Made by a program: the position numbers and the translations under genes
Assembly: GCA_014871385.1 (NCBI GenBank)
Contig: CM026421.1
Coordinates: 17,901,048 to 17,965,047, forward strand
From: Ceratodon purpureus
Taxonomy: Eukaryota > Streptophyta > Bryopsida > Pseudoditrichales > Ditrichaceae
Direction: 5' to 3'
DNA: 64,000 bases
Shown: positions 3,780 through 54,070 of the stretch, piece by piece
Layout of the letters: the number at the start of each line of letters is the position of its first letter
Position numbering within the stretch: position 1 is the first letter of the stretch
Notes under the pieces: generated by a model
Seen by the model: only the letters and a program-made list of their open reading frames with translations
The model's database searches: none
What the model was told of the DNA's origin: nothing

Positions 3780-4021
3780 TTAACCCTTAAAGGACATATG
3801 CTTTCCTGATACGACACCCAAAATCTCTTTTAAACTCCATTTTAAGCACGATTCTATTTTCAATTTGCTTTTACTCTATTCTAAAAAAGTATAGATCTCT
3901 TTAAGGTGCTCGATTTGGCATTCTAAAAATCTCATTTGGTATAATGGAGTTTAAGTTATGAGCAAGATTCTCTCAAAAAAAAACCCTGCCCCTAGGGCTG
4001 GATATGACGTTTAAAGGTTAA
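3780..4021. mobile_element. TTAA-flanked MITE 'E', 242 bp
   Basis: TTAA occurs at both ends (3780-3783, 4018-4021). The TIR is about 22 bp: the left end reads TTAACCCTTAAAGGACATAT and the right end as reverse complement reads TTAACCTTTAAACGTCATAT, with 3 mismatches. Internal arms around 'aaactccattttaagc' and 'ggagtttaagttatgagc' are also roughly inverted, so the element could fold as a long hairpin. It is the shortest member of the family in the window and has no coding capacity. Confidence 0.7.
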
Positions 4022-4328: not shown

Positions 4329-5417
4329 TTAACCCTTAAAGTTTTTGGCCATAAAATCCCAAATTTTGCCTCAATTCTGCCCTGTTTAGTTCAAGGTAGA
4401 ATTATGCAAATTCGAATGTATTTTAAAGAATCTAACCGTATGATTTAGTACCTAACTTGTACATGTATGTGTACACAAAATTTTGGATTGTAACTCCTCA
4501 CCGTTTGGAAGATCATAAGGTTTGAACTTGAGAGAAAAGGTTTTTTTGGTACTGCCCGGTAGGGATAGCCACCCTTTGGAGAGTGAAACAACCAATTTTT
4601 TGAGATCGTGTGGTTGGAGGCTCTTTAGTTTTGGATTCTAAAGTGAGTTGAGAGTATGCTCAAAAAAATTGAAGACATTTCAACACACAGAAGCATTCGA
4701 AAACCACATTTCCAGTGATGGGAGTCAAATGAAATGCATATACACTGGCTCTTTTTCCACACTACAAAAGCCTAAGAGGATCATCTATTTGTGAAATCCA
4801 AACGGTGTATACATGCATTTGTATGGAAAAGAAATTGTACATGAAAAAAATCCAAAAAATAAATAAATCTAAATAGATATGAATTTTACAGCATATACTG
4901 TGGTTTAGGAGGAGAAAATGGTGAAGGAAAATGGAGGACGAAGGTGACCCAATCACTATTGATCTGTCTGAAAGTTTTTATAAAACTTGGAACTTTGAGT
5001 AAATATATCTCAAGATCCGTACGGTCAAAATTTACAAAACTTGGTATATATACTAATTGGATGGCTCTGAACAAGATCTTATGGTTGGACTTTTCAAAAT
5101 CAAGTTTAAAAAAAAATTGTGATACGATTTCAGAAAGGATCATTTGGAAGTCACTGTAGACTCCCACATATTTGGTACACCACTCCCATCGGCCACAAAC
5201 CTGCCCCAACTGCCCTGAATTGAATTTTGCTCTTTAAACACAAATTATTTTTTAACTACGGGCCCGATGAAAGTAAAATTTGGTCTTGTTAGAAAGATAT
5301 GACAATTTCCCATGCTGTGCCAAAGTTACAACCACATCCGGTAAAATTTGACTTATAGGGAGCCTGACCGGACCCTAAATCATACCAAAACTGTTGAGTT
5401 GTTGCTTTAGGGATTAA
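4329..5417. mobile_element. TTAA-flanked element 'J' (subfamily H/I/J), about 1.09 kb
   Basis: The left end is TTAACCCTTAAAGTTTTTGG and the right end is GTTGCTTTAGGGATTAA. The interior matches element I (44363-45209) in the same orientation: the block 4436-4530 ('...tagtacctaacttgtacatg...caccgtttgg...') and the block 5280-5417 ('...tggtcttgttagaaagatatga...atcataccaaaactgttgag'). It matches H (35795-36601) in reverse. Two short open frames inside (4886-5209 minus, 4944-5159 plus) are shadows of non-coding repeat sequence. Confidence 0.65.
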
Positions 5418-5936: not shown

Positions 5937-6755
5937 GTAACCCCTAAAGGACGAAGCAACCACTTTTGGGTTGCGCAGAAAATAGAAAACCCAGTAAAAT
6001 GCACTAGAAGAGTCAGATTTGAGTGTTTCTTGTTCCTAACCTATTAAGAATCAATTTGGCAATAAGAATACGCTAAAATTTTAGTGAAAAAATGAAACCC
6101 TGATTTAGAAAAAATAAGGAACATCGGTCGGTCCTATGTTTCTGTAGTGAAGTTAGTGTTTCTAGAGAGACAATATTTCAACTGTACTTTGAGCACATGT
6201 GCACTGAAATGAAGATCTCTGCTTGTGGATTTTTTTTAGCATTGTTTTTTGGAGGAATGCTTGTATGACCACTACTTTATGGCTTCACCATTTTGGATTT
6301 ATCAAAAACCCTTTTGAATTTGCCAAAAAGTGCCATGTTGAAAAAAATTAAAATTTAGAGTGAGACTTATGCCAAACCTATTTTCTCCAAATTAGTAACT
6401 TGGTAAATCTTTAAAAAAAATGTGCATGTTCCTAACATAGTAGAGAAGAGAATCAACTTTAGTTGCCAAGTTTTTATGAATTTTTGAAGTAGCAAATTTT
6501 AGTCAACGATGGAAACTCACTGTTAGTATTTCAGAAATTCAGTAATCTTCCCAACTTCACATGTTATTATCTCTCAATCCGTTGCTTCCCCAAACCGAAA
6601 ATTTGGTATACATTTGGGTAGCCCACTACTTTCAAAGATCTTATGGCTAAATTGCTTATGGTGATTTTCAAATTTCTCTCACTTTATAAAATGCAAAAAT
6701 GGCACAATAGGTACTCAAAAACTGTGGAAATAACCCTCCGTCCTTTAGGGGTTAA
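5937..6755. mobile_element. TTAA-family element 'F', about 0.82 kb
   Basis: The left end reads GTAACCCCTAAAGGACGAAG and the right end, reverse complemented, reads TTAACCCCTAAAGGACGGAG. The TIR matches for 18 of 20 bases. The left tetranucleotide is GTAA rather than TTAA, probably a point change in the target duplication. The interior is AT-rich and non-coding. Confidence 0.65.
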
Positions 6756-20861: not shown

Positions 20862-23800
20862 CTACGCCCTTTTTCTCTTTTTCCCCACAACTCGATTTGA
20901 TTTCTTCTCTCTTCCATTCCCGACAACTCGTCTTTGCAAACTTTGTAACGCTATCGCATTGTCTGTATCATTGAGTATGATAGCTCCGGTCAGGTCCGGC
21001 ACCACAGTTTGACATAGTGACTCATTGCTTGGTAAAACACCCCCTGCAGCACCGTCCGTGGACATAAAAAACTCGTCACCTTCTTCAACTTTACGCCTCG
21101 ATCGGGCCTCCTTCTTCAATACTACTTTCCACGTAGATCCTGGAGGACGTAGATCATCTGTAGCAAAGAAAACCTGAGTGCACTGTGATGGAAAGACGTA
21201 CGGATCAACGGATTTGGGGATGTTGTGCTTAAAATTGACAACAAGGAAACCATCGTTATCACGGACATATGTACTGTTGTTTCGATTGTCCACATGTTTT
21301 TTCCAAGTGCAAGAAAAAACAATCACTGGTGTTTTCAGTTCACCGTAGTTTGGCACCAATATGTCTTGGAGCACTCCAACATAATCTTGGCCAATCCCAC
21401 ATGATTCCTTGTTTGATTCGAAACAAGCCACACCGCTGTCGAAGTTTGGCATACACCTGGAGGTGGTATCATCCACTCTCCAATGGTTGCCGTATGCGGT
21501 CATCTTGGCATATCTTTTGCAATACAGAGACGGGGGGTTCGACAACAACAACAAGTCTGACTCATTGGGGTCATCCATGTCGAGATGCATTGCATGGATG
21601 GTCTGTTGGATCCAAACTTCCAGAGGAGTACTTGGTCCTCCCGTCTGTTCCACCTCCGATTCCCATTGACTGTACACGCTCCACCTCATACATGTCAGTA
21701 TTTTACGAGGAGAACGAGTGACATGGAGACAGAGCATTGGAGACCACAGACGGATATGGTGAAAAACAATCAGAGTATTTCGCAGCGTCTGGTGTCCACA
21801 TGGAGAGCAACGGATATCAGAATGAACTCATGCGCAGAACAATATAGCGCTGGGGAAGAGTTTATAAAGTACCTGTAAAGAGTCGCGGTCAGTGTACTAT
21901 TTCTTAAAACAAATTTGTGAAGTGCATCTCTTTCCGATCTTGAAAGGATAACGTCTACCGCGGCTCCCTCCAACACTTCGTACTCTTCGCAGTCCTCGGG
22001 ATCTTCATCCCAAATTCTTCTTCTCACCGCCTCATAGCCGTGCATATATGATGTTGCATATCCCATTGTCTCCTCAAGTGAATAGCCCTGTGCAATCGAT
22101 GCCTCGGGCCGTGCCCTATTTTTAACGTGGTTTTTTAGCATCATCATAGTTCGTTCAATTGGATACATCCAACGAACCTGGGTGGGGCCTAATATAATCA
22201 ACTCGTCAACTAAATGCAATGGTAAATGCGTCATAACATCAAAAAAGGTGATAGGAAACGTTATCTCTAGCAAGCATAACGTCACGGCAACGTCCTCCCG
22301 CAAATCATCTGCCTGTGCAGGATCCCAGACCTTGCAACATAATCTGCGAAAGATTCTACAAGCCCTCATAATGGACATTCTGGTTTTCGGTTCCATCAAG
22401 CCCCTCAACGCAAGCGGGATTAGAGTCTGGATCAAAATGTGGTAATCATGCGATTTGAGAGCACTAAACTTTTTGGAGCGAATGTAGCTGCCAATCTCCG
22501 AGCAGTAACCAGAGGGTACCTTTATATTCTCCAACCTCGTGCAGAACACGTCGAACTCCTTGGGAGTCAAAACATAGTTTGCAACCGGCTTTAGCATCCT
22601 GGCTGGATTCCTCGGGTCCCTTACCATCCACAAGTGCGGGTGAACGCCTTCCCTTTCCATGTCCCTCCTCACCTTCACGCTATCTTTTTCTTTGAAACCA
22701 GTAATAGTCTTCAACAGATTTTCGGCAAAATTTTTTTCACAATGCATTATGTCCAACGAATTCCTGATTTCCAGATGCTGCACAGAGGAGAAATAAGTGT
22801 AGTTAAAACATGAGTCCGAAGTTCAAAGGACCAAACATGTCAAGATAGTATAATACCAAAAAAATGAAAAAAGCATGTCTAATTTTTAGACGACATAACT
22901 TTTCATCGATTACTCTTTCAACGAACCCATTCCAGTACCACGCCTAATATGTACACGACAATGCATTGTTCCAGCAACCATGAGTAATGTTTTCCTAGTC
23001 CTCATGTTTCGTTTTCCACAAGTATGTATACTACACATTAGCTTTCCACGACTTTTTTTTATCTATGTCCTCTAAAAATGTGTATTACTGTGAGCGTTCT
23101 GCAAGCTATTGTCACCACTGGCTGCTTACAAAATCAGGTTTATCAGGGAGTTCATACTCTGCCTTCCACTACAGAGTACGAACACATTACGAGGTTGACA
23201 ACATCCGTGACCATATATGCCTAAGTGTACAGCAAATTACCATGTTTGAATTAATCTTAGGTTTATTATTCTTATGTTTATTCAAACAGAGACTTACATA
23301 ACATGAAGTTCAACAAACAGTCATCAGAACAAAACATGTGCTTAGAAACATCTACATGCCACAGTGAGTTGAATGTGCCATGTACCTCCCAGTACGGTAA
23401 CTCATAAAAAATACTCCATCTCTTCATTCCATAAGTCTTCGATGGATCCGCTTCTTTTTCCCGCTTTCGATTCGATGCGGCACCATGGAATTGCCTCGGC
23501 GCCCCATTATCTTCATGGTTTGATGTAGAAGCCGCACCTGATTTACTCGTAGATGCCCGACCCCCTTTGCCTCCAGGTCGCTTTCTTTTTCTAGTATGAG
23601 TGCTGTTCTCAGATTCGCCATGCATTTCGTCTGGCGCAGAGGCTCTGTCGTGTTGTGTCCCTGGTTCAGCGAACATGTGCACACACTTACATGTCTAGCC
23701 GCTACAAAGGAGCACACAAGTGCATTTACATGAAATTAGATCATATTCAGGAAGGGTAGGCTGACAATTACCTTGATTCGATAAGTAAGCTTGGTACTTC

Positions 23801-25611
23801 TGGAAAGCAGCTCTTTGATCCGCAGGTGACTTCGTAACAGGTCTACTTCTATGTTCAGAGCGTCCACCAAATAATCTATCGAACTGGTGTGACCGTAGGG
23901 TATGATGAGGAGGTAACCATCTGCGGGAGTCTCGGTAAATAATTTTGCGGCTCTCATAGGCGTACGTACCGCGGAGCTGATCTCCACAGGGAGGACAGGC
24001 AGTGTATCCCTGGTGAGCAGCGCCTGAAACAGTGCCGTATCCTGGGAAGTCGTGAGTAGTGTAAAGAATAGCTGCTCTTAAATTGCATATACGTTCACCT
24101 TCAGGCTTGCATACATCATACGCTGGTACTCCTCTCCATAGAGTCTTCATCTCCTCTATCAATGGTCTAATCCACACATCAAAGTACTGAAAAGGTACCT
24201 GCGATCTGCCAGGAATCAACAAAGCTAGAAGGGTAAAAAACTTCTTTGTAATTAGCCATGGTGGCAAATTCAGAATCGTTGCAATAACGGGCCATGCAGA
24301 CCAGCTGGACTTGTGTTGTTTAAAGGGACAAATACCATCGCACGATATTTGTAGTCTCAAGTCTGTGTCATTAGCTCCAAATCCCATAGTGTCGAACACC
24401 TCCGGGTCCAAAGTATCCAGTCTCTTCCAAGCTACTGAATCTGCAGGGTACCTTACTTTGCCATCTTTACTTTCGTTTTCCTTGTGCCAACGAAGAAGCT
24501 TAGACAGCGCTGGGATTCTGAGAAACCTCTGTAGCCTGGGTGTGACAGGGAAAAACCTCAGTACCTTCAAAGGCCGCGTTCTGTGGAACATGTCTCGATA
24601 TCTAGGTGAGTTACACACAGGACACCGGTCCAGGTTTTTCTTCGCTTCATCATCAAATAGAACGCATCCAGTTGGACATCCGTCAATGTTCCTGAAGCCC
24701 AACCCTAAACGGTTGGTGAGAGTCTTTGCCTGGTACAATGAACCCGGTAACTGGTTCTCAGAAGGGAGTAGTGTTTTAATCGTTGCAAAGATATCATCAG
24801 CTGCCTTGTTGGTAATTCCCGGATGTGTAGCCACTAAGTTAACAACCATCACTGTCGCTCCCAGTTTTGTTGTAGTGGAGCCATTGTACAGCAACCTCAT
24901 GGCATCCTCGAGTGCTCGTGCATCTTGCGCTCGCTCATTCTCAAGACGTTCATTAGTTTCACCGTTTTGACACGGCTCATCAGTGTGGGAACGATCGTCA
25001 TCATTGGTCCTATGATCTCTATTGTCACCACAGTCATCGGGTACGTTGCCCCCTTCATCTCTAACTCCTTCCTCCCCTATCACCCCTGACTCACAGCCCG
25101 CCACTCCCACTGGTGTATGACAATCCGCTGTATTGTTTCCCGGATCATCTTGGTTAATGCCTGTGATATCGTCACTTGCTTGCATAGCTGTCATCGCAAT
25201 CCGATTAATTGTTTCCTCTGTGGCCGCTGCTTCCTCCACCTGCTGATACATCTCTTGCAACATGTTTCGCATCTCCAATCCATTATCGCGTTCACGTATG
25301 ATTGTCGATGCTTGTGCAATCTTCGCAGTATAATCCTGTTCCCACTCGTCATCAGAAGAGTCCGGTTCCTGTGGCCCTCTCCAAGTTCGGCAGTCTGGAG
25401 ATCGGCCAAATCGTATCAAATGTCTTTCAACTTCTGTAATACTGATAGGGCGCCCAGTCCCTCGGTGATGCAAGCATGGGCATGGTATCCTTGGAAATCC
25501 GTATTGCAATGCCCGTTGTTTGTCTCGCAACCAGAGTTTGTTATCTCTTTCTCTGACCCTCCGGTGATCAGAAATCGGTAACTTTTCAGACATCCTGATA
25601 AGAGTGGTCAT
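20862..25611 (-). CDS. CACTA transposase, Tnp2/TnpD type (four exons, about 1275 aa)
   Basis: This is the DDE transposase that would cut at the CACTA ends. The model is exon 1 25611-23772, exon 2 23660-23386, exon 3 22777-21873 and exon 4 21669-20862. Each junction has GT/AG ends and matching phase (for example CAAG|GTAATT, CCAG|GG, GGGAG|GTACAT, GTGCAG|CAT). The total is 3828 nt with no internal stop. Exon 1 holds the Cys/His N-terminus and most of Transposase_21, including ISCDGICPF (D about 424) and THDFPGYG (D about 521). Exon 3 has LDIMHCEKN (E about 719), then the DUF4218-type region (VRWMYPIERTM). Exon 4 has the DUF4216-type block (YVGVLQDILVPNYG) and a basic tail. These acidic residues are the likely catalytic triad. 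ATG 25593 (MSEKLP) is an alternative start. The last intron (21872-21670) is the least certain. Confidence 0.9.
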
Positions 25612-27050
25612 TAAGGAATTAGTCCTTCAGGTTTTGCATGAACAAAGAAGAAGTCACTGAATAGTTTCTCCCGGTTGTGTGGAAACTATTGCAGATGTCA
25701 GCAAATCACGTTACAGAGAAACAATTGCTTTCAATGCAGCACCCAATACATCGTAATAATAGAATGAATATTACAAGAAGAGATTGTATGATTTAAGTAA
25801 GCAGACAGCCAAATGTAATATATCTTTATACGGGGGGTTCGATCATCACTTTACCTTGCAGCAGTATGGTCTTCTGGAAGTTGTATCCCCCGATGTTGAT
25901 TACATATCTCCCGAGTCGCACCTCCCTTACAGTGACACAAATTGTCGTCTTACATGTTCCTTCAGTGCCGGAACGACAAAAGTTAAAGGATGTGGAACTA
26001 AAGTGTGCAAAGAAACATACAGTGTACATGATAAACTTTCAAAATCTGATGTAAAAGCGCGATGTGACCGTGATAAGAGGAGCTGAATGGAAATTATTAG
26101 GACTGTCACAACCCAAGTGCAACTCAGACATTTGCATCGACCATAAACTGGTATAAACCCTAAGTGCACAATCGATTTATAATCAAATGGACAAAAAGGG
26201 AACGTGTATCTCTGTCGTTTAGTACAATACACTACAGCACAGGGTAGTGGATGGGCAATCAATTCAATGTTTTAAACAATAGACTGATTCTACACGATTA
26301 CAAACTGCAAGGACGTAATGCAGGAAGCAAGTGATAGCGGATACCTAAAATCTGTGGTTGATCTCCACTGCAACAACGCACTCCTTCTTGTTGACTGTAT
26401 CGCGTGTCTGCATGAATGAAACGGACAGAACTCGCATTAGTTGCAGGTGTAATGTGAACTATCAGAATACTCTATAATAGAGGATACGAAGGGACAAATT
26501 CATAGAAGGGGCATAGATCGTGAACATTTACGACCAGATTGGAGAATACAGACCACAAGTGATGTTGTCTAAGATGCCGCTATTGAGATCGAGTGAGTAT
26601 TTTTCATCGTAGATAATCATCCCATAAACATTCCCGCAAATGTTAAAATCAGAAAATGATCAGATGTATGCGAATTAAAAGGACGATCTCTTCTCTCGAA
26701 AGCAAATTCGAGATGCAAGAATGGTAGATGAAGAGATAGAACTTAAGCAGTATCGGTTTTCCTTCCTCTCAGGATAACGCAAACTCTCGGTTCTGAAAAA
26801 TGGAAAAGTTTCTAATTCCACTGTCACATAACTAACGGTTGTTCAAGAGTCTACAACGCTGAACATACCTTTGGTCGAAAAGGAAGTTGAAACGGTGAGC
26901 GACAGAGCTTGTAATCATCTCCTCCGAAACCCCTATCTGGTGCTCCGCTCAATTACGCAGATATCTTGCTACACTTCGTGAATTCTCCTTCCTGAATGAA
27001 CCCAGACGTTGTCGACTCCAGCCAAGAGAGAGGATTCTGACGCTGTAGAG
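25612..27050. promoter_or_regulatory. Divergent intergenic region between transposase and TnpA-like gene
   Basis: About 1.4 kb separates the two gene starts. It probably contains both promoters. Frames at 25784-26262 overlap on opposite strands and are not convincing genes. A short upstream ORF (ATG at 26996, 14 codons) precedes the TnpA-like start. Confidence 0.4.
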
Positions 27051-35794: not shown

Positions 35795-36601
35795 TTAATC
35801 CTAAAGCATCAACTTAACAATAATGGTATGATTTAGGGTCCAGTTAGGTTCCCCATAAGTCATTTTTTATGAGATGAAGCTGTAATTTTGGCACAATATA
35901 GAAAATTATCATGTTTTTTAATAAGACTATTTATGCTTCAAAATTCTTCATACTTTAAGAGATATTGGCAATCAAAGTTTGAAAATTTGCCCAAAACTAT
36001 TGTACATGCTCAAAATCTACCCAAAATGAGTTAAATCACAAAAACTTCAAAAATTCACCAAAAATTGATGTTTTATTTTTTTCAAGTTTGGTTTTTTGTA
36101 CATGAAAATACAATTTGGAGGCATGATCTCACCGCTTGGATTTTCATTCTAATATTTTTCCATATGCCTTTTTTACTATCATAGACCAGTGTTTGTATTT
36201 GAATTTCAGTACACCTCCATGTGAAAAATGAAGCATTTCTTTAGGTTTTATGGGTCGTATGAGGGGAAAAGTGCATGGACATATTCCTAATCCACATAAG
36301 AAGAAGAATTTGAAGAGCTTCTCATCAAATTTACTTTTGAAATTGGTTTTTTTGGCTCACAAAACACTTGAAACCCATTTTGCAACATGGAAAGAAAACT
36401 TTTTTTCCAACTTAAAACATTATGATCTCACAAATGGTACGGATTTTGAATCTAAGATTTGAGGTACATATACATGTACAAGTAAAGCACTAGATCCTAT
36501 GGTTGCAACCCCAAAAATACATCAAAACTTAAAAACTTCCACCTTACATTGAAAATGTCTAGTTTTTAGGAGTTTTGAGGCCTTTCAACTTTAGGGGTTA
36601 A
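35795..36601. mobile_element. TTAA-flanked element 'H', about 0.81 kb
   Basis: The left end is TTAATCCTAAAGCATC and the right end is CAACTTTAGGGGTTAA, with TTAA on both sides. The interior is the reverse orientation of I and J: 'tggtatgatttagggtccag' and 'tttaataagactatttatgc' near the left, and the block 'ctcacaaatggtacggatt' near 36433. A 70-codon frame at 36250-36462 is a by-product. Confidence 0.65.
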
Positions 36602-38627: not shown

Positions 38628-39621
38628 TTAATCCCTAAAGGACCATTGTTCTAGAATGGGTTTTTAAAAATCTCGGGCATGTACTTGAAATCTCAATTTT
38701 AGATATTTGTTTTTGAATTTTTTGTGAATGTAGGCCATATCAAGAACTTTGAGGGAATCTATTTTTTTCAATTGGACATATATAAAAATAGTTATGGTAC
38801 CCAAAGTGGAAAAAGATGTTCTATAGGCAATTCAGGTTGCCATGCTAAATACATCAATTACCTCTAAGAATATTTCTACAACTACTTCATGATGTCATCT
38901 TTGAGGTTTCTAAAAAAATAAAAAATAATAAAATAAAATAATAAAATAATAAATTAAAAATTAAAAAATTAAAAAACGACTTTGGGCGCATAATATTCAC
39001 TCCACAAAATATCAAAGTTTTCTCACCATTTCGAGCAGTGTACTAAAAAAACTTCTTCTCTCCTTCATTAAAGTTAGAAAAAATATTATTCTAGATTTTT
39101 TCTTCCTTTCACTTAAAATATGGACATTAATCTTTATTTTGACTGTTTAGATTAAGACTTTATTAAACAATGGAATTTCTAGGAAAGAAAGAAGATTTAG
39201 TATTCTTGTGTATCTAATGTAATAAAAATATTGTTTTCAACATGCTACACTTGACTTTTGAGTGAAATTATTTTAATACAATTAGCTAACTTAGTCTTCT
39301 TTGATATGCATAAAAAACCCCAAAATCCATAATGCAAAAAAAACAAAAAAAAACAATATTAAAGTGTGTCAACCTAGTCAAAATTCTTGTCAATTTTTTT
39401 TTTTTTTTTTTTAATTTCAATTGCTATAATCTTCTAATCTCTGCGGTCAATTATATTGATTTTTTTTTTAAGTGTCTATTACAATAATCTAGTTGAAGAT
39501 CTTAGATCTTAGGGTTAGAATTAGAAAATAATGTTTTTTAGTCATTCATGCTTTTTACATTGGAAATGGCAGTTTAGGAGCATTTATTGGTGAAGCATAG
39601 TCAAGGAACTTTAGGGGTTAA
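38628..39621. mobile_element. TTAA-flanked element 'K', about 0.99 kb
   Basis: The left end is TTAATCCCTAAAGGACCATT and the right end is AACTTTAGGGGTTAA, with TTAA on both sides. The interior contains A/T homopolymers (a T run at about 39395-39411; 'aataaaataataaaat' at 38923-38945). It is non-coding. Confidence 0.55.
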
Positions 39622-41334: not shown

Positions 41335-41753
41335 TTAACCCCTCAAGGGCCTCGGTGTTTTTGGAGCCAAACCAGCCAAAAATAAACCCATACTATTAAA
41401 AACATTTTTTATTAAAAATTATACATATTGAATATTGTTCACCTATTTTGAAGAAAATTCACCATACAAATTGCGAGATAATAATGTCTGAAGTCACTGT
41501 AAAAGTTTTTTTGACACTGCCCCGAGAGTATACCTAAGTTTTGATGCCCAAAAACTATACTTTGCAAAACACATTTGAGTCATAGAGGATAGAGGATCAT
41601 CAATGTCTTAAGGTATGGAAATTAGGTATTAGCTCACAAATTTTGAGCCTCATACCGGCTTACTAAGTGGGAAAAAATCCTTGATTTTGTGAAAAGGGGT
41701 GTGCTGAAATTGCCTCACATTCTCCCAAATTAAAACTACTTAAAAGGTAATCT

Positions 41754-42558
41754 TAACCCCTAAACAACCATAGTGCTAAAGGCGGCGTTTTTGGAATTTG
41801 GGCAAGTTCCTAAAAATTCAAATTTACTTGAAATTTTTTGAATTTTTTCGTGGAAAAAGGTTTTTTTAAGAGGTTTATGGGGATATTTTTAATTTTTTTT
41901 AAAAAATTAAGCGAGGAAAAGTTATGGGATTTTAACAATTTCAGTCAATCTTTGGGCAGGCTCTCAGCCACTGTGAATGCAACAATTTCTGCCCAAAACT
42001 GCCAAATCTGCCTAATGCCGAAACTTTGAAATTCCACCAAATATCGAGATTTTAGTGTTTTTCAAAAAGAAAAAAAAAAAAAAAAAATCTATATGTAAAA
42101 GAGGCACTAGAGCATGTTTCCACTATTTGGATTTTCAATTCAAGAATGTTTCATATGTTTGTGAATTTCAGCATACCGCCTTGTGGAAATTGATGATTTT
42201 CTCAAAGTTCCACACCTTGCACGGGCATGAGATTTTGTGGACATGTACCTAACTCACCTAGAAACAAGAATCTAAAGAGGCTCATTCTAAATATACTCAA
42301 AAAATGGTTTTTTGGACCCCAAAAGTCTATTGTCCCCCTTTCGCAGGGTAAAAAAAACTTTTTCTTCAACTTTGAATGTTATAATCTCTAAAATGGTAAG
42401 GAATGAGAGTGTGAGATTTGGTAGGCATATAGACATAGAAGATCTTATGGTTGGAAAAACACAAAATTGGTTCCAATTCTGCACTATCCGGCTTGCTTCA
42501 AAAGGGACTATTTGGAGGCAGTTTTGAGCGAAAACATCCTTGGCCATTTAGGGGTTAA
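41754..42558. mobile_element. TTAA-flanked element 'D', nested in B, 805 bp
   Basis: The left end is TTAACCCCTAAACAACCATA and the right end, reverse complemented, is TTAACCCCTAAATGGCCAAG. TTAA is present on both sides. The unfilled relative A reads through the site (reverse complement 'gtagtcagaaaatgttcaattgg' against 'ggtaatc-TTAA-[D]-TTAA-aatgtccaattgg'). The interior carries the shared GATCTTATGGTTGG module at about 42440. Confidence 0.8.
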
Positions 42559-43154
42559 AATGTCCAATTGGAAATCCAAACGGCTAATATGTTGAAGTCA
42601 ATGAGGGAAAAACCACAAATTTTTTTAACGCAATTGGAGTAGATCTCAAATTTCTAGAATTTTTTTAACTGTAAATTGTAAATTTTCCTTTTATTTCAAA
42701 AGGCAGCTTTAGTAAAAAGGAGGTCGTGTGGATGGACCCCTACCACGTCGTAGACATGGGATGAAATTTATTAATTTTAAATGAAAAATGAAGATTAGAT
42801 GACATATGTTTTGTGGATGAAAAAAATGATTTTGGATGAAAATTAAGCTCTAGGCGTCAATTGGATGAAAAAATCAACAACTTCTTTAGATGGAAATGAT
42901 TAGTTACATGATAAATTTCTATTGGATGAAAATTGTCATGAATCTATATGGAAGAAAAAATATTGGGCCCATCATTTTGCAAGTGCGTACCCTTGGAGAT
43001 TTTGTCTTGTCACTTTCTGCCCTTGTGATTGAAGGGCAACTTGGGCAAAAAATGAGAGATTTTGATAGGTTATTGGTTGCCCACAATTAGAGCAGATTGT
43101 TTTAAAATCGATAACTTTTGTATCATAACTCCAAATGCTTTGAAATTTGGGCCA

Positions 43155-44088
43155 TTAACCCCTAAAGGTTCAAGCCGTTTTTGGACCTCCAAAACCAAAA
43201 ACTGTGATTTTTGACGACCTTGTAGAAGTAGAAGTATGATACTTAATTTTTTAATTTTTTGATACATCCAACCGTAAGATCTTAAACCTAACTACCTGCA
43301 CTAATACCATGTAAAATTTCAACGGTTGGATCTTTACCATTTGTGAGATTATAACGTTCAAAGTTTACTGTTTTTTTTTTTTGGCTTTGCGGGAAAGGCA
43401 TACTCTAAATGGTGCCAAGGGAGACTTTATTATTGTTACCTCAAACATTTTGCTCATATTTTTTTCCATGTAGGTAACTAAGTTGAGCACCTCCATGCAA
43501 AATTTTAGAGTCTCATTACAGTTTTTTGGCCTTCATGCAAATTAATTTCCACAAGAAGGTGCAAAAACCACAATATGGTAAAACCTAAATGACGTGAAAT
43601 GCTTTTGGTTTTTTAAAAAAGTGAACGGTTAAAAGTTATGTCCATGATTTTTTGAATTATTGGAAAAAACAAATTTGAAAATTTCCTAAATCTCAAATTT
43701 TGACAAATTTTGAAAGAAAAAATTGTAAAATTACCAAAAACTGAGAAGGTTGTTTCTGTGATTTTTGGAGGCTGCCCTTCTAAATTTGGTAAGCTTTTTG
43801 ACACAGGCCACTTTGGATTTTGAGTAGTGAATTGGTTATGAACACATTTCCAAAAAAAAATTCTAAAAAAACCTAATTTTAAACTGCCCGTTTTGGACTT
43901 GAAACCTAAAATTCCTAGATGAAGGTTCTAAAAGTGAAATTTGGCATCAAAATTTTTACCACATACAGTTTGCTGTATAAGAGCATCCAGTAAAATTCTT
44001 AGGCAAAAATATTACTTTTAACCCCTTCATGTAGGCTGCCCGAAACAGCCGAGAGCCATTTTGGATTTCCAGAACCTTTAGGGGTTAA
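43155..44088. mobile_element. TTAA-flanked element 'C', nested in B, 934 bp
   Basis: The left end is TTAACCCCTAAAGGTTCAAG and the right end, reverse complemented, is TTAACCCCTAAAGGTTCTGG, a TIR of about 17 perfect bases. A related copy without the insertion exists in A ('ggcccattggaaagctattg' as reverse complement, against 'gggccat-TTAA-[C]-TTAA-aaagctattg'). Another TTAACCCC occurs inside at 44028 and may mark a small secondary insertion or a rearranged end. Confidence 0.8.
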
Positions 44089-44362
44089 AAAGCTATTGTT
44101 GAAGTTACATGGAGAAAAAATTCAAGGAAATTTTTAAATTTTGAAACCTTTGAATAAGCTGCCTAGAAGTGCTACAACCATAATATGTTCCCAAGGGCCT
44201 TTAGGATTAAATTCATAGAGTTTATTTGCCATATTCATTTCTTCACTTATATACTTAAAATCAAATATAGCTTATTACATATATCTGAAATATTTTTAGA
44301 GCTTATGACGTCGAAGGAAAAGATGGTGGACTAAAATTTGATGGCAAAGCTTGGTAGAATTA

Positions 44363-45209
44363 CTAACCACTAAAGTTGAAAGGCCTCAAAATTGCCAAAT
44401 ATCCTGAAAACTAGACTCTTTCAATACAAGGTGTAAGTTTTTAAGTTTTGATGTATTTTGAGGGTAATAACCGTAGGATCTAGTACCTTATTTGTAAATG
44501 TATATGTATCATAAATCTTAGATTCAAACTCCTTACCGTTTGTGAGATCGTAATGTTTTAAGTAAGAAAAAAGTTTTTTTTTCTTGTTGCAAAATGGGTC
44601 TCAAGTGTTTCATGAGCCAAAAAACCAATTTCAAAAAAAAAATTGATGTGAAGCTCTCCAAACTCTTGTTCCCAACCAGTTAGGAATGTATCCATGCACT
44701 TTTTTCTCTCAAATGGCCTATAAAACCTAAAGAAATGCTTGATTTTTCACATAGAGTTATGCTGAAATTCGAATACAAAGGTCGGTCTATGTCAATAGTA
44801 AAAAAAGCATAAGGAGAAATATTGGATTGATAATCCGAGGGGTGAGATCATGCCTTCAAATTGTATTTACATGTACAAAAAATAAAACTTGAAAAAAGTA
44901 AAATCTCAATTTATAGTGAATATTTAAAGTTTGTTTGATCTAATTAATTTTGGGTAGATTTGGAACGCAGTTTTGGGCAAATTTCAGCATGCCCTAATAA
45001 TGTTTTCAAACTTTGGCTGCAAATATCTCCTAAAGTATGAAGAATTTTGAAGCATGAATGGTCTTGTTAGAAATATATGATGATTGTCTTCATTGTGTCA
45101 AAATTGAAGCACCAAAATTGCAGCTTCATCATGTAAAAATTGACTCAAGGGGAACCTGACCAAGCCCTAAAATCATACCATTTTTGTTGAGTTGATGTTT
45201 AGGGGCTAA
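44363..45209. mobile_element. TTAA-family element 'I' flanked by CTAA, about 0.85 kb
   Basis: The left end is CTAACCACTAAAGTTGAAAG and the right end is GTTGATGTTTAGGGGCTAA. Both flanking tetranucleotides are CTAA. The body matches J in direct and H in reverse orientation. It lies between B and A. Confidence 0.65.
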
Positions 45210-45322: not shown

Positions 45323-46382
45323 TTAACCCCAAAAGGCTCTTGAGACCCGATTTGGGTCGCAGTACTTTTGGGTAGGCTAGTCTAATGATTCAGAATTTTA
45401 TTATTTTCTGAAATTTTTACACCATGTAGCTCTCAACAATAGCTTTCCAATGGGCCAGAGACGCAAATTTCAAAGCATTTGGAGTCACGATGCAAAAGTT
45501 ATGAATTTTAGAAGAATCTACTCTAAATTTGGGCAGCCAATAACCAATGGAAATCTCCCATTCTCTGCCCAAGTTGCCCGTCATTGAATGGGGCAGAAAA
45601 CGACAAAGACAAATTTTCAAAAGATAGGCACTTGCAAAATAATGGGCCCAATATTTTTTCATCCACACACATTTATGACGGTTTTCATCATAACTTAATA
45701 AATTTCATCCATTATCTACGACGTGGTAGGGGGTCCATCCAGAGGACCCCCTTTTACCAAAACTGCCCTTTGAAATAATAGGGAAATATACAATTTACAC
45801 TGTGAAAAATTCTAGAAATTTGAGATCTATTCCAAATGCATTGAAATTTTTTGTGGTTCTTTTCCTCATTGACTTCAACATATATATTGTCTGGATTTCC
45901 AATTGAACATTTTCTGACTACCCTAAACATAACCTGTACATAAGTAGTTTTAATTTTGGAGAATGCAAGGCAATTTCAATACACCCCGTTTCACAAAATC
46001 AAGGATTTTTTTGCCTTTCAAAGCTCCTATGAGGCTCAAACTTTGTGAGGTTATACCTAATATCTACACCTAAATGAATTGATGATCCTCCATATATCAA
46101 ATGTGTTTGCAAAGTATAGTGTTGGGCATCAAAACTTTGGTATACTCACGGGGCAATATCAAAAAACACTTTTGCAGTGACTTCAAATGTTATAATCTCG
46201 CAATATGTATAGTAGATTGTCCTCAAAATAAGTATATAGCTTTTTTGAATTAGTGAAGTACATGATCCTACGGTTTTATATTCAATTTTATGTTTAAATT
46301 TAGAAATGAGTAGATTTTTATTAGTAAGGGTATGTTTCTAGCAGTTTTGGCTCCAAAAATACCAAGGGCCTTTAGGGGTTAA
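45323..46382. mobile_element. TTAA-flanked element 'A', 1060 bp, unfilled relative of B
   Basis: The left end is TTAACCCCAAAAGGCTCTTG and the right end, reverse complemented, is TTAACCCCTAAAGGCCCTTG, with TTAA at 45323-45326 and 46379-46382. It is the inverted counterpart of B and lacks both nested insertions, so it records the empty sites. Minus-strand frame 45668-45417 is not a gene. Confidence 0.85.

Positions 46383-46604: not shown

Positions 46605-46667
<63 letters not shown>
46605..46667. repeat. (TA)n microsatellite, 63 bp
   Basis: Uninterrupted TA dinucleotides, directly followed by a TTAA-family right end (CCTTTAAGGGTTAA, 46668-46681). Confidence 0.97.
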
Positions 46668-46669
<2 letters not shown>

Positions 46670-46772
46670 TTTAAGGGTTAATGTCTTTCATGGATGAAAA
46701 AATATTTTGGATGCAAAGTAAGTTATGGATGATGACTTTCATTTGGATGAAAAAAATTCAGAACTGAAAACA

Positions 46773-46776
<4 letters not shown>

Positions 46777-46847
<71 letters not shown>
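46777..46847. repeat. (TA)n microsatellite, 71 bp
   Basis: Uninterrupted TA dinucleotides, 109 bp after the first tract. The open frame that reads Ile-Tyr repeats here is an artefact of this tract. Confidence 0.97.
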
Positions 46848-47482: not shown

Positions 47483-49762
47483 ATGGCAGACCGCCTGTCG
47501 TATGCGGAAGCTCTGAAGGAGAAGATGGAACACGCACCGGTGGCGGCTAAAACCTCCACGGCGGAGTTAGATCGTGATGCGGCACAGCAAGGCGAAGCGA
47601 TTGAACCTGAGTTCGTGGCAGCAGTTACGAACATGGGAAAATATGCTGAGATCCACCCCACGGTAGCGGCACCAGGCGAACGACTTCCGGAAGGATATTC
47701 TCGCAGTTGTGCGGGGTTCCTACTGTGCAACACTGTTGTCGAAATTAAGGTTGACCAAGACATTGTCAGGAAGGAGACTGAGCGCCTGCAGAAGCTTGCC
47801 ATCGTGGCTTATTTCGTGGGTGGACGACAGACTAATGCAATGCTTACCCAATGGGTAGCGGCGCTCCAGACTCAAGTTGGGGATTGGGTTGGATTAGGTC
47901 GAGATTTGGGCAAGGGGTTTTTCCAAATTCTCACGAGGCAAGCTGCAACCACATAGAAGGTACTTATGCACACCCCGCACAGGTCGAAATGGGGCACTTG
48001 TATTCTACAGACGTGGTCCCCTGGGTTTGACTCCAACAAACCCTCCAGACTGAAAGTGCCTACGTGGGTGACACTCCGAGGGCTTCCGGGAGAGTTCCTT
48101 GGTGTAGCAAAAGACATCGCAGCAGGTTTGGGTGAACTGCTGGGGAGTGACAAGCGTAATGCCGTGACAGCCGATCAACGGTTCTGTGTAGCTTTACAAT
48201 CGGGCCAGGGGTGGAAGACGCAACTGGCGGTTCAGAATGACATCACGGGGGAGAAGGTGGTAATACTGGTAGACTACTGTAACCTTCCGATCAGGTGCCG
48301 GTGCTGCCATTCAACGGATCACCTTATCAAAGACTGCCCAAGCATCAAGGGGCCGACACCAACAGGCGAATCATCCGACGGAACACCAGTAGAGGACAGG
48401 AGCTCTGCAGCAGTAAGTGGGCAATCACCTGAAGGAGGCACGGGTGAACCAGCAGGCCAGCAGTTACAGCAACCATCGAGACCAGATCCACCACCTCCTT
48501 CGGCTCCTGCGGCTCCGGATATTGCAGTTGACAGTCTCATGGGAGTCAATTCCGAACCGTCGACAGACACTTCAGGTAACCACTATTCTAACGGCGATCC
48601 TCGAGTGACCCCAGAATGGGAATGGAACGGATGGGAAAAAGTCCCCAGGCGTAAGCATCCGGTGAGAGGCCCTGCCACTGGTGGATTGCAGCCCCGCAAT
48701 AGGAACCAGCACTATGAACACTCAGCTAGAGTGCCAGAAGACAGACGCCAAACATCAGGCCCGTCCAGAGGTTCTGAGAGACGCTCAAGCTCGGACAACC
48801 ACTCAAGCCAAGGAGGGCAGCGTGCCGGGATGAGGAGTGATAGAGGACGGCAGAACCGGCACACCGTACCCGCTGAGGTGGAATGGGAGAGAGGCGCTCC
48901 GAGCAACACCAACCAAGCATCTGGTAGCAGGCAGAGAGGGGAAGGCGCCACTACCAGCAGTGACAAGAGTCAAGCTGCCAGACACAGTGACAGTAGGATC
49001 CAAGAAGGGGAGGCCGCACAACATGAGCCAGCACTTCCCGAAGGTCCAAATGGAAACCCAGCTGCAGATCAGATGATGATAGATGAGGCTGATGCCCTGA
49101 TACTGGCGGCTGTGGTGGAGGCCGAAATCCAGCGGGGGCAGGCTCAGCTCAATCTAATTAGCCAAAGAGAAGTCGAGCCCATGGCCCTTGGAAGCCAAAT
49201 TGTCGAGAGAGGAGAAGGGAGCCTCAATGCTCAGGGAGGAGATGAAGTTCTTATGCCACCGCCCGGGCAGAGAAGAGAAGGAAGGAATGGCGGGGGAGCA
49301 ATGGTCTTTACGGCAGTGGGACGCCCGGTCCCTGACCTTAACAACTTAGCAGCAATCTCGGGCTCGGTCGTAGCAGCCGACGGCAGCGTCGGGGAGGATT
49401 CGCTCGCCTTCCCCCCGCTCAGAAGAGGACACAGCGAGTGGCAGGATGGCGAAAGATCAGGGGCTTCGACTCCCCATACACCCCGGTCCATGCCGGAAGG
49501 ATTGGCAATTGAGCTACAAGCAGAATTTTTTGCATGGATGCAGCAAAGAGCAGGACGAACACCGGCAAGCTCAGGGAGCAGAAGGGTTTCCCTTACTCCA
49601 CAGCAGCAAGCTTCGAGAAGACAAGAGGCGTCCCAATCAGGGCGGAGGCAGCGTGCGTCTATCCTTACTCAGCGACGCGTTCCTCATCGTGATGATAATC
49701 CGACCAATGAATCGTGCAACGCACAGCTGTTCCCAGACCTCCCCCCCCAACCCCCCGTATGA
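47483..49762 (+). pseudogene. LINE ORF1 (gag-like, DUF4283-like plus CCHC zinc knuckle) with internal stop
   Basis: ORF1 proteins bind the LINE RNA and form the ribonucleoprotein. The frame starts at ATG 47483 (MADRLSYAEALKEKM) and runs to TGA 49762 in one frame, 760 codons including the stop, but TAG at 47954-47956 interrupts it after residue 157. The DUF4283-like fold spans the stop: residues before it (RSCAGFLLCNT) and after it (WVTLRGLPGEF) belong to one domain. A CCHC knuckle (CRCCHSTDHLIKDC) lies at 48296-48337. The rest is a long hydrophilic, Gly/Arg/Gln-rich tail. The TAG fits a CAG to TAG transition. The stop overlaps the ORF2 start as ATGA. Confidence 0.9.
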
Positions 49763-52700
49763 AGGTCACAACAGTATTCCAGAACGTACAGGGAATTAAC
49801 GACTCCCTAAAGGTGGATATTGTGAGACAATACTACCGTGGCTTTTTTTCTCAAATTGAAATTCTCTGTTTTCAGGAACACCATTTGCGCGGGGACCGGC
49901 TTAAAGCCCTGCAAACTTCTTTCTGGCCGCAAGCACAGTTCTACGGGGTAGAAGCAGGTCTGGGCTTCGGACATAGTCAAGGGGACGTAGGGGCGGGTAT
50001 CGGAGGGGTCTGCATGTGGGTGGCACCGAAGGTGGCCCACCTGGTCACGGCTTCTGGTGAGTCACAGGATGGTAGAGCCCAGTGGATCAGAATGAGCGGA
50101 GTCACAGGTGGTGACCTGGCGATTTTAAATGTGTATGCAGCCACCAACTCAGTCGAGCGATGCGCTCTCTGGGAGGAACTTCGGGATCTCCTTCCAAAAG
50201 ACTGCAGATGGATCATCTGCGGTGATTGGAATTTTGTAGAGCACAGGAGGGATAAGTCTAACATAGAGGGGCGATTGGTTTCAGCGGGAGAAAGCAGAGT
50301 CTTTTCCCTCCTTAAGGATGCGTTGAATGTCCGGGAGCATTTCAGGGTGGTCAACGGAGTACGCTACTCCTGGGATAACAAGAGGTTTGGCTCCACCCGT
50401 TCCCTGGCAAGGCTTGACAGGTGCTATACCTTCGCTCAAGCAGGGGCCGGACTAGAGCCGGTAACGGATTACCACATCAGGGGCGACTGCTATCACTCAG
50501 ATCACCTCCCAGTGCTCTGTGCCGTCCAGTTGCAACCGGTCCCGAAACGCAAGTCAACCTACAAGATGAGTAGCCTTCACTTAAAAGACCCGGTGGTGGC
50601 GGAGCAAGTTAAAAGAATCTGGTTGCAACATAATAACCTCGGATTCACCGGAAAATTGCGGAGGGTAGTCAAGTTCTACAAAACGTTTTGCGTGAATAAA
50701 GCTGGAGCCTTTAGGGCTGAAGAGGCCGGGCTGAGGAAACAGGTGGAGGAGGCCACAACCGGCCTACACGACCAGCCAGATAGCGAACCCCTTCAGCAGC
50801 AGCTCCAGGAGGCCGGAGAAAATTTTAAAAAAGTGGAGCAGCGTCAAGCTGAGGGCCAGCGAATTCGCAGCAGAGTTAAGTGGAAGAGAGTAGGTGACGC
50901 ATGCACGCCAGAATTCTTTCGTGCATCCAAGGCACATTCAGGTGCCTCCAATATTACCTCGCTGGAAGATGAAGATGGGGTGCTGCATGCTGATCAGCAA
51001 GGGCTAGAGGGCGTTTGCACGAGTTTTTATTCTAAACTCTATACGGCCTCACCACCCTCGCAGGAGCAGGCTGCAGCTGCAGAGCAGGGCTTAGGCACCA
51101 TTTCGGATCGACTCTCGGCCGAGATGAAACGGGCCCTGAAGGCGCCTGTGACCATGCCGGAGTTAACCAGAGCCCTGGCAGCTATGGCCAAAGGAAAGGC
51201 CCCTGGGCCGGACGGGGTACTCACCGAGTTCTACAAAGAGTTTTGGGATGTCATCAAGGATGATTATCTGGCAATGGTTAACCTGGCGGTGATCAATCGG
51301 CAATTCCCGGCAGGCATCACCAAGGGGCTAATCTCGTTGCTACACAAAGGAGACAGCCGGATCCTCCTCACGAACTGGAGGCCAATCACGTTGCTCAATG
51401 TGAGTTACAAGCTGTTCGCCAAAGCGCTGCAGATGAGAGTCCAACCGGTCCTGATGGAGGTGATCAGTGCGGATCAGTCGGCGTTTCTCCCTCTACGGTT
51501 CATTTTAGACAACATTCTTCTGACACATGAGACTATGGAATGGGCCAGGTATTCGAAACAGCCCCTAATCTTTCTAAAGCTTGACTTTTCTAAAGCTTAT
51601 GATATGGTGGAATGGCCTTTCCTATTCAGTGCTATGCAGAAGTTAGGATTCCCAGAAGAGTTCGTAGCCATGACACAACTCCTGTTCCACGGAGCCACGG
51701 CCAATTGCAAAGTGAACGGATCACAATCGCCGGAGTTCCGAATCCAACGAGGCGTGCGTCAAGGGTGTCCGCTTGCGCCATACCTTTTCCTAATAGTGGC
51801 GGAGGTACTTAATGCGATGGTGAAGCAAGGAGTTAGCCTAGGGGCGATCAAGGGCATCATGCTACCTGGGGGATGCAAGCAACAAGTTATTGCGCAGTTC
51901 GCCGATAATACGTCTTTCACAGTTAAAGGAGAAGAGGCCCCGGTCAAGGAGCTCAGTCGTGTGTTGGACCTCTTCTGCCTGGCCTCAGGGCTGCGCCTCA
52001 ACTGGGTTAAGTCGTGTGGGTACTGGAAGGGCGGTACAGGGGAAGGGCGCCCCCCCCTGGACGAACGACCTCAATATCACGTGGATTGATGATACGAGCG
52101 TTAGCAAGCTCTTAGGTACGCCCTTTGGGCTCTCTTTAGTAGCCAAAGATGTGGATTCCTTCTTGGCAGCCCGCATTACCAAAAAACTCCAATACTGGTG
52201 CACAGCGAAAATCAACTCGACCGGGAGGGTTGTGATAGTCAATAGTGTTCTGCTGTCCTCGGTAATGTTCTTTGCCTCAATCTGGGAAGGGACAGAGCAA
52301 GGAGTTAAGAAAGTGACGACTGCCATTCAAAATTTCCTTTGGTCTGGAAAGATGCATCGGGCCAGAACCAAAGTGGCATGGGCTCAATGTTGCTTGCGCA
52401 AGGAGGAGGGAGGGATTAATGTTATTAATCCTAAGGATGCCCTTGCTTCTCTTATGGTTAAATGGGTGCTTAAGGCCTGTGAGCCGGGAGAATCAAATCT
52501 GCATCTGCTCCTACGCTACAGGCTGAGTGCCTTTCAACCATATCAAGGGGGAAAATGGAGCCCAAGTCTCGAGTACTTCACACTCGCACACATGCAGGCG
52601 AGAAAAGGCTCGGCTGCTTGGACGCGAGCGGAGAAGTCATGGAGGCGACTGCGACCGAGTGTCCACACAGTTCCCCCAGAGACAAAGGAGGAAGTTTTAA

Positions 52701-54070
52701 GCGAGTCATTCTGGTGGTCCACCCAAGTACCTCTCATCGGTGCTGGATTCTCGAACCGGCGGGCCTCGCAGCTGCACAAGCTAGGCCTGAGGAGGATACG
52801 GGATGCTTATGAGAATGGGCAGTTTCTGCGACCTGAGGTGGCACAAGTGCGATTTAAACTGCTGGGTACGGAGTTTGGTGCATGGGCTGCAGCGGGCCGA
52901 GCAATCGATCAGGAATGGGGACAGATGCTGTCACGACCACGAGGCGTGGCCAGAGAAGGTGAATGGATCGGGTGGTTTGAGGACGAGACCTCGGCCACCC
53001 CTTTGGTTGTCATTCAAGCACCAGCCTCCCCGTTTATGCGCCTTGGAGGACCAGCGAGGGGCAGGACCCTACCAGAGCTCATGCACACGTTTGCGGTGCT
53101 CCCAGTATCCAAATGCTTGCGGCCCACCGAGTGGCCCCCCACGGTGCAAGGGAGGGGTAATGTTGGTACTACAGGGATTGCTTTCAGGGTGCGGGTGGTT
53201 ACGGTAGAACGGGGCCCTCGTAAGGCTAAGGTGCAGCTGTTTTACGGGAGAACTGACTCCCTGAACTGGGACCCGGGCCGATTCATTTGGAATGCAGAGG
53301 GACAGCCAGTGCCGCTCATGGAGTATACCGCAAAAATTGGTAGAGAAATACTGAGAAGCAGAATTGTCGTCAACAACCCTGTTACGAGGAAGTTGCAAGG
53401 AGTGTTACCCAATGACTTCCGCCTGAAGTGGAAAACGGTTTGGACTAAGGAACGAACCAGTAAGGAGGCAGGCCTCCTCTGGCTCGTGTGGCACCGTGCT
53501 ATTGCCGTTAATCACTGGAGAGGAAGGTATGATGCGACGATCGACGTTAGCTGCCCCGTTTGTCCTGGGCACTCTGATGAGACGGTCCTACATCGTTTCT
53601 GGGAATGTGTGTCCGCTCAAAGGGCGTGGCAATGGGGTGTGCACATTATGAACACGCTGATCAGTGGCCGGAATGCGAGGGGCCCTTGGCGATTGATCAC
53701 CTGGAAACATGGGATTTTTTCGGATGGCATCCCCCGGAAATTCAACCCCGTGAAGAGGATTTGGATGGAACTTAGGACAGTGATCCTGTGGGCCTTATGG
53801 ATTGAGCGCAACGACAAGGTGTTCAACAATGTCTTGTGGACCCCGGAGAAGATGCTGCAGGTGGTCTGGCTTGGCATTACGGATTATGGCAGGATGGAAT
53901 GGAGCTCGGTGAAGCTGAAGGCGAAGACGAACCCGGATGACACCGAAAAGAACTTCGCCGTTTTCAAAGAGAGGAGGGGTAGAGAAGAGGTGTTTGCTGT
54001 GTTTATTGATGACAAGCCGAGATGGCAGCCCAAAGGTCCGGCAGCGGGCTTTGTTTTTGAACCTCACTAA
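49759..54070 (+). pseudogene. LINE ORF2: APE endonuclease, reverse transcriptase, zf-RVT; frameshifted
   Basis: ORF2 nicks the target and primes reverse transcription. ATG 49759 overlaps the ORF1 stop. Endonuclease (about residues 1-260): FQNVQG, CFQEHH, GDWNFVE and YHSDHLPVL. Reverse transcriptase (about 500-740): GKAPGPDG, NWRPITLLN, FLKLDFSKAYD, RGVRQGCPLAPYLF, then QFADNTSF where FADD is normal. The second catalytic Asp is therefore Asn (codon AAT at 51907-51909). At the C8 run 52050-52057 the reading frame shifts by one base; the upstream frame ends at TGA 52087-52089 and the downstream frame continues to TAA 54070. The C-terminus has a zf-RVT-like Cys/His motif (CPVC, then HRFWEC) at about 53550-53610. 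No RNase H domain is seen. Confidence 0.93.

Follow-up and report, generated by a model that had tools for sequence, protein, structure and literature searches.

The window analysed here is a stretch of 64,000 nucleotides of the moss Ceratodon purpureus (C1:17901048-17965047, chromosome 1) that contains a set of small elements, A, B, C, D, Y and E1 to E5 (Table 1), which we consider as candidate non-autonomous transposons of the piggyBac superfamily. Element B, whose termini are CCCCTCAAGG and TCCTAAAGG, contains elements D and C, each with CCCCTAAA ends between TTAA copies and each opening with TTAACCCC and closing with GGGGTTAA. An earlier note on this DNA had placed A and B at these positions, with D and C inside B and flanked by TTAA and with A inverted, and all of this was confirmed, TTAA being present on both sides of B as well; its description of the arrangement as doubly nested was not, as D and C lie side by side inside B and represent one nesting level, twice over. 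A second TTAACCCC, at 44018 inside C, was rejected as a further nested copy; it belongs to the C family and is present in the aligned copies. Across the 64 kb, TTAA followed by CCCCTAAAGG (up to 2 mismatches) occurs 15 times, against 0-1 per Markov-1 simulation (n=10). In viral contigs the end pattern was matched 29 times, a number taken to reflect chance.

The ends of the C family could be defined from 16 copies, the one in the window and 15 in other places of the Ceratodon genome (362,488,568 bases in 151 contigs), the best of which (L052) is 97.9% identical. In these copies identity halts at TTAA on both sides. The first 14 bases from the left TTAA inward all agree in 16 of 16 copies, and on the right 13 of 14 positions agree in 16 of 16 and one in 15 of 16, while outside the copies the bases are mixed and the flanks are at most 48% alike in ungapped pairwise comparison. 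The copies were picked by their exact ends (save the right end of L056), which means that TTAA was selected in this sample and the stop of identity was not. CCCCTAAAGG is found at either terminus of C and of its copies, giving the short terminal inverted repeats beginning with CCC that are described as the rule for piggyBac (PMC10813416). The earlier note had named two outcomes that would speak against its proposal, genomic copies without TTAA and ends internal to a longer repeat; genomic copies proved to be bordered by TTAA on either side, and the C-family ends are true ends. Two further copies, L050 (1-1821) and L054 (1-1964), are broken by other small elements, and these were rejected as empty-site evidence because the inserts have other ends, not TTAA-CCC.

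The same genome encodes piggyBac transposases. Matches to the piggyBac DDE domain PF13843 were scored at 116 places out of 998 first-look candidates, and all of these exceeded the cut-off, with a best E of 5.3e-84. They are spread over contigs C1 to C13 and C53, and none was found in 14 control genomes. Counted by eye, 93 of the 116 rows have no stop inside the domain, and stops are listed in 23. Twenty of the places were fetched as transposase loci (L058-L077); wider flanks were taken for seven of them (L078, L079, L080 with L035, L081 with L085, L082, L083 and L084), for the place of L065 again (L089) and for five other places (L086, L087, L088, L120 and L121). All six frames scanned contain PF13843. 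Two frames match the moth piggyBac transposase (PDB 6x67; E 5.8e-28 and 1.2e-28) and piggyBat (9c0f; E 2.9e-26 and 7e-26), and residues D268, D346 and D447 of 6x67, given in PMC7351741 as the active site, are aligned to D in both moss frames (counted by eye on the alignments). Five aligned sequences from different lineages have D187, D270 and D381 invariant, together with six C-terminal Cys and one His, which predicts a C-terminal cysteine-rich domain. A DDE_Tnp_1_7 domain with three catalytic aspartates is thus found in related elements of the genome, not in the window elements themselves. The moss domains include five lineages that are 34-48% identical. Two copies, one on contig C5 and one on C6, share 99.18% identity across 3164 bp and have frames of 923 and 952 codons; their homology begins exactly at TTAACCCC, outside which the bases differ, and their other ends lie past the fetched stretch.

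These transposases lie between ends of the kind seen in the window. Ends like TTAACCCCT flank the transposase on both sides in 8 of 11 extended regions (T1061, L078, L079, L081, L082, L083, L084 and L087), making elements of 4.6-6.8 kb. When inverted end pairs were sought with no requirement for TTAA, the pair at TTAA, or one base outside it, came first in L079, L082 and L084 and ranked within the top four in T1061, L083 and L087. Both ends of E5 match those of T1061 (159 bp at 74% and 30 bp at 93%), and the first 147-175 bp of D match the ends of L082, L079 and L081 at 75-77% (the first 174 bp against L082 at 76%) and that of T1061 at 68%. Elements C, A, B, Y, E2, E3 and E4 are linked to the transposase-bearing elements by a subterminal block (C to L083: 122 bp, 69%) and by the motifs described below. 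The piggyBac affinity that the earlier note had read from the termini is supported by PF13843 inside TTAA-CCC-ended elements and by the homology of their ends to D and E5. Differing ends were observed in the L084, L086, L088 and L078 regions (CCCCAAAGTG, CCCCCAAATG, CCCCCAACCG and CCCCCTAACG), and the moss genome thus seems to have a number of end codes side by side with its several enzyme lineages.

Two recurrent motifs, M1 (AACCGTAGGATCTT) and M2 (GAGATTATAACGTTTAAAGT), lie close to one end of the elements, with M1 97-116 bp inside. The motifs were written from the window elements, leaving the transposase-bearing elements as an independent test, and the pair was found in T1061, L079, L081, L082 and L083, always 3' of the transposase domain; it was not found at the ends of L078, L084 and L087. 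Seven of the ten window elements (A, C, D, Y, E2, E3 and E4) have the pair at threshold. In 288,417 bases of loci, mostly chosen by their ends, there are 40 distinct pairs, 36 of them exactly 75 bp apart, and a TTAACCCCTAAA-like end lies upstream of 37 of the 40 (the exceptions being L070, L074 and L087); the complement control on the same bases gave no pair. Genome-wide and unselected, the pair (gap 55-70 bases) occurs 1777 times, against once for the reversed pattern, and the exact 75-bp step was counted by eye in 91 of 100 listed pairs, all on C1. We suggest that the 75-bp motif pair is a putative transposase binding site. In the moth element, as described in PMC7351741, the ends are likewise organised asymmetrically, and the Cys-rich domain binds an internal repeat. 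Reversed M1 is similar to the opening stretch of M2, matching it by hand at 9 of 14 positions, a weak likeness that might fit two related protein sites.

The distribution of the motif pair bears on which enzymes might have moved the window elements. They could be piggyBac elements mobilised by a lineage other than the L061/L083 group, in which the pair is found: at least five divergent transposase lineages coexist, and the ends of L087, CCCCTCAAGGCCCACG, are similar to the left end of B. Set against this, the pair is present in the five L061/L083-group elements examined and in most of the window elements, and is missing from the ends of L078, L084 and L087, which makes mobilisation by another lineage unlikely.

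An element that reads TTAA...TTAA fits either duplication of TTAA or duplication of TA by an element with ACCCC...GGGGT ends. Stowaway/Tc1-mariner miniature inverted-repeat transposable elements (MITEs) duplicate TA and leave the outer bases free, and PIF/Harbinger MITEs duplicate three bases, TTA or TAA. Elements of either type with a preference for TTAA, and with true ends one base outward, would formally account for the borders, and the GTAA and TTAA of E3 are what they would allow. The genome-wide counts argue otherwise. TTAACCCCTAAAGG occurs 2843 times and VTAACCCCTAAAGG, with another first base, 99 times (2 and 5 times for the reversed patterns), so that the outermost base is T in 2843 of 2942 ends (96.6%) and is not free; the fixed outer T and the CTAA on both sides of Y likewise do not fit a three-base duplication, E3 being the exception, and Y's pair points to a duplication of four. 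The transposase-bearing elements with these ends are, in addition, piggyBac, and a Stowaway- or Harbinger-like origin appears very unlikely.

The second ends of single-ended matches bear on the same point. Twenty anchors were drawn from the genome list of TTAACCCCTAAAGG, each with one exact end and no exact second end nearby, and a second end was accepted if it had no more than one mismatch in CCCCTAAAG and lay within 1.4 kb, TTAA not being required. It was present for 15 anchors (13 with TTAA, one with GTAA and one, doubtful and 321 bp away, with AGTC) and absent within 1.4 kb for 5. In an earlier set of 8 anchors, representing 7 elements, the second end had TTAA four times and ACCG once; L035 forms the end of the long T1061 element, and L030 has no second end within reach. 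GTAA and CTAA are recorded as rare variants for animal piggyBac (PMC10813416). Because of the outer-base counts, Y's CTAA pair and the anchors' second ends, we favour a duplication of four bases. The TTAA target duplication proposed in the earlier note is upheld by the same counts, by second ends that read TTAA without having been selected for it, and by insert-free siblings of B, described below, one of which has TTAA.

Four bases, TTAA, are also duplicated by Kolobok-type elements (PMC9587614), which the earlier note had mentioned alongside piggyBac. The Kolobok termini stated in that source are 5'-RR...YY-3' and the ends of T2-type MITEs are given as AGGRR (PMC6004289); both groups thus have the duplication in common with the moss elements, and both start with purines where the moss ends are CCCC...GGGG. 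Because its stated termini differ, we set Kolobok aside as highly improbable. PF13843 piggyBac is the kind of transposase found between CCCC...GGGG ends, no search aimed at Kolobok transposases having been made.

Element A provides a first view of B without its inserts. A blastn comparison of the two gave four collinear blocks of 74-84% identity, in which D and C, as anticipated in the earlier note, are the two largest unmatched stretches of B; one more such stretch, about 140 bp long, is a difference of the ordinary kind. B also has a stretch of repeated TGGATGAAAA units (42781-42960 of the window) that is missing from A and from a third sibling, L041. The earlier note had regarded A as direct evidence of TTAA duplication. 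A does cross both insert sites base for base, but it has AGAA at the D site and TTGG at the C site, and therefore demonstrates one tetranucleotide without insert and is imperfect proof of a TTAA empty site. As the sites in A did not read TTAA, the flanks of B were joined across the D site and run against the genome for further siblings, and the junction was crossed by all 40 matches scored of 644 candidates. In 10 of 10 fetched siblings the D site is a single tetranucleotide (TAAA in 6, and AAAA, TTCA, ATAA and, in L114, TTAA in 1 each), and in 9 of the same 10 so is the C site (TTGG in 7, TTGA in 1 and TTAG in 1; L110 is unaligned there). L041 also lacks D and has a deletion around the C site. 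Given sibling sites with one tetranucleotide, the inserts are genuine, and each brought an element and four bases. That A instead lost both segments by deletion, or that B was misassembled, has nothing in its favour and a negligible probability, given that D is missing from all ten fetched siblings, and C from nine of them, at the corresponding place and that C exists as an independent element with unrelated flanks. An insert in L081 was rejected as an empty-site case, as it sits where no sibling aligns. L041 and L042 (C1:3770867-3772391 and C1:3807784-3809308) are A-family copies of the same length that lie about 37 kb apart in inverted orientation, with mirrored flanking bases, and that probably arose by inverted duplication in place.

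Sharp ends with TTAA at either side, insert-free siblings, PF13843 between the same ends and a shared end block together lead us to conclude that A, B, C, D, Y, E2, E3, E4 and E5 are, with high probability, non-autonomous piggyBac transposons, and that piggyBac transposases from other parts of the moss genome most likely move them in trans. Several observations weigh against this conclusion. No transposase remains were found in the window (tblastn, 20 moss frames, E 1e-3), and the link to piggyBac therefore rests on ends and motifs. The termini of C, A, B, Y, E2, E3 and E4 show no long match to any of the transposase-bearing elements examined; of the motifs, B has M2 alone, E5 has weak matches and E1 has none. 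Three of the 11 extended regions lack both ends in view (L086 and L088 with one end in reach, L089 with none clear), and the end-pair search that did not require TTAA missed L078, L081, L086, L088 and L089. The target sequence itself is not uniform: TTAA stands at the D site in just one of 10 B siblings, at the C site in none of the 9 aligned, and on 12 of 17 ends listed for those siblings, and there are the borders of E3, the GTAA of anchor L107, the doubtful AGTC of L100 and the ACCG of L034.

If these elements are non-autonomous piggyBac transposons, the enzymes acting on them in trans would be encoded in the larger elements, whose ends are likewise CCCC...GGGG. If the moss transposase works as the moth enzyme does, it would cleave the DNA at the element ends and carry a TTAA overhang, which would then be joined to a target TTAA, so that the inserted copy is bordered by TTAA left and right. 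C and D would each have entered a B copy whose sites had turned into TTAA, presumably through point changes that preceded insertion. We infer that these transposases moved these copies, and that cutting, joining and seamless excision would proceed in this way.

With the piggyBac element of Trichoplusia ni (PDB 6x67/6x68) and piggyBat (9c0f), the moss elements have in common the TTAA target and its duplication, the CCC ends, PF13843 with three aligned catalytic D and a Cys-rich C-terminus. They differ from these systems in their moss host, in many frames of 900-1050 codons between stops against a chain of 594 residues (6x67), in the 4.6-6.8 kb length of the two-ended elements (n=8), in the one-sided pair of motifs 75 bp apart and in a large gene-less retinue. 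The earlier note held that neither piggyBac nor Kolobok is normally expected in land plants and supposed an undescribed plant lineage. The first part needs correction for piggyBac: in a table from 2015, piggyBac is among the superfamilies in all groups surveyed, land plants included (PMC4438587), and a table for the fern Ceratopteris has 1230 PiggyBac copies (PMC6890710). The entries in those tables record the superfamily name without an account of ends, duplications, empty sites or transposases. The main text of a paper on Physcomitrium transposable elements (PMC7466625) does not mention piggyBac, and a literature search on plant and moss piggyBac and TTAA MITEs, beyond whose reach the Ceratodon genome paper lay, found no description of a moss piggyBac lineage. 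The elements thus belong as new members to the piggyBac superfamily, whose most familiar representatives are those of animals, and are likely to represent an undescribed moss lineage.

In a quick tree of 94 of 95 rows, including 19 of the 20 moss frames (L062, with a domain of less than 250 residues, was left out), all 19 moss domains and 14 unnamed database proteins form one group (Shimodaira-Hasegawa-like approximate likelihood ratio test [SH-aLRT] 99), apart from fish, nematode, moth and oomycete rows. Within the group moss and unnamed proteins are intermixed; the tree was rooted at its midpoint, and its inner placements are uncertain on account of long branches. One frame had 75 protein matches, of which the 22 that bear an organism name come from animals and Phytophthora, and among 120 listed of 283 matches to a five-sequence profile the names noticed are those of animals. 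Neither list includes a Ceratodon-named protein. Ceratodon proteins exist in that database, and their absence from both lists is likely due to repeats having been masked ahead of gene prediction. We also consider, with slightly less than even confidence, the existence of a bryophyte-specific and recently active piggyBac clade with a large gene-less retinue and a one-sided bipartite end signal (two related inverted motifs, 75 bp apart, about 106 bp inside the 3'-side end). According to PMC10905368, a footprint is left by every DNA transposon yet found in plants; if excision in moss is seamless, this would be an endogenous plant transposon that leaves none, and the moss lineage allows seamless excision to be tested in a land plant. 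PiggyBac from the moth is the standard footprint-free vector, and native moss relatives, apparently young and diverse, could give plants a system of their own. The fixed 75-bp motif pair makes a sharp prediction on end recognition.

Table 1. Elements of the window and the subterminal motif pairs within them (positions in the window)
Feature	Position	Strand	Description
Element B	41335..44210	+	A/B-family host copy, about 1.14 kb minus two inserts; TTAA each side
Element D	41753..42558	+	806 bp counting both TTAA copies; insert in B; stretch missing from A
Element C	43155..44088	+	934 bp counting both TTAA copies; insert in B; stretch missing from A
Element A	45323..46382	-	Inverted sibling of B without D and C
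Element Y	44363..45209	+	847 bp; CTAA each side, a four-base direct repeat; 80% identical to E4
Element E4	35795..36601	-	807 bp; Y family; TTAA each side
Element E5	38628..39621	+	994 bp; both ends match transposase-bearing T1061; weak internal motifs
Element E2	4329..5417	+	1089 bp; related to Y and E4
Element E3	5937..6755	+	819 bp; GTAA on the left, TTAA on the right
E1	3780..4021	+	242 bp; possible small relative, doubtful; similar ends, without internal motifs
M1+M2 of C	43270..43364	+	75 bp apart; 115 bp from TTAA end
M1+M2 of Y	44469..44563	+	75 bp apart
M1+M2 of A	46180..46275	-	76 bp apart; 107 bp from TTAA end
M1+M2 of D	42369..42452	-	64 bp apart
M1+M2 of E2	4434..4528	+	75 bp apart
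M1+M2 of E4	36410..36504	-	75 bp apart
M1+M2 of E3	6554..6648	-	75 bp apart

Other features of the window include two long (TA)n runs (46605-46681 and 46777-46847), the first of which closes with CCTTTAAGGGTTAA, a terminus of the kind described above for which no partner is visible. A CACTA-type element on the minus strand (20865-25626) has frames with Transposase_21 (tnp2), DUF4218 and DUF4216, and a long interspersed nuclear element on the plus strand (47957-54067) carries endonuclease, reverse transcriptase and zf-RVT domains over overlapping frames. A MYB frame at 61865-63073 matches the Ceratodon purpureus protein KC19_1G227300 with 100% identity over 87% of the query.

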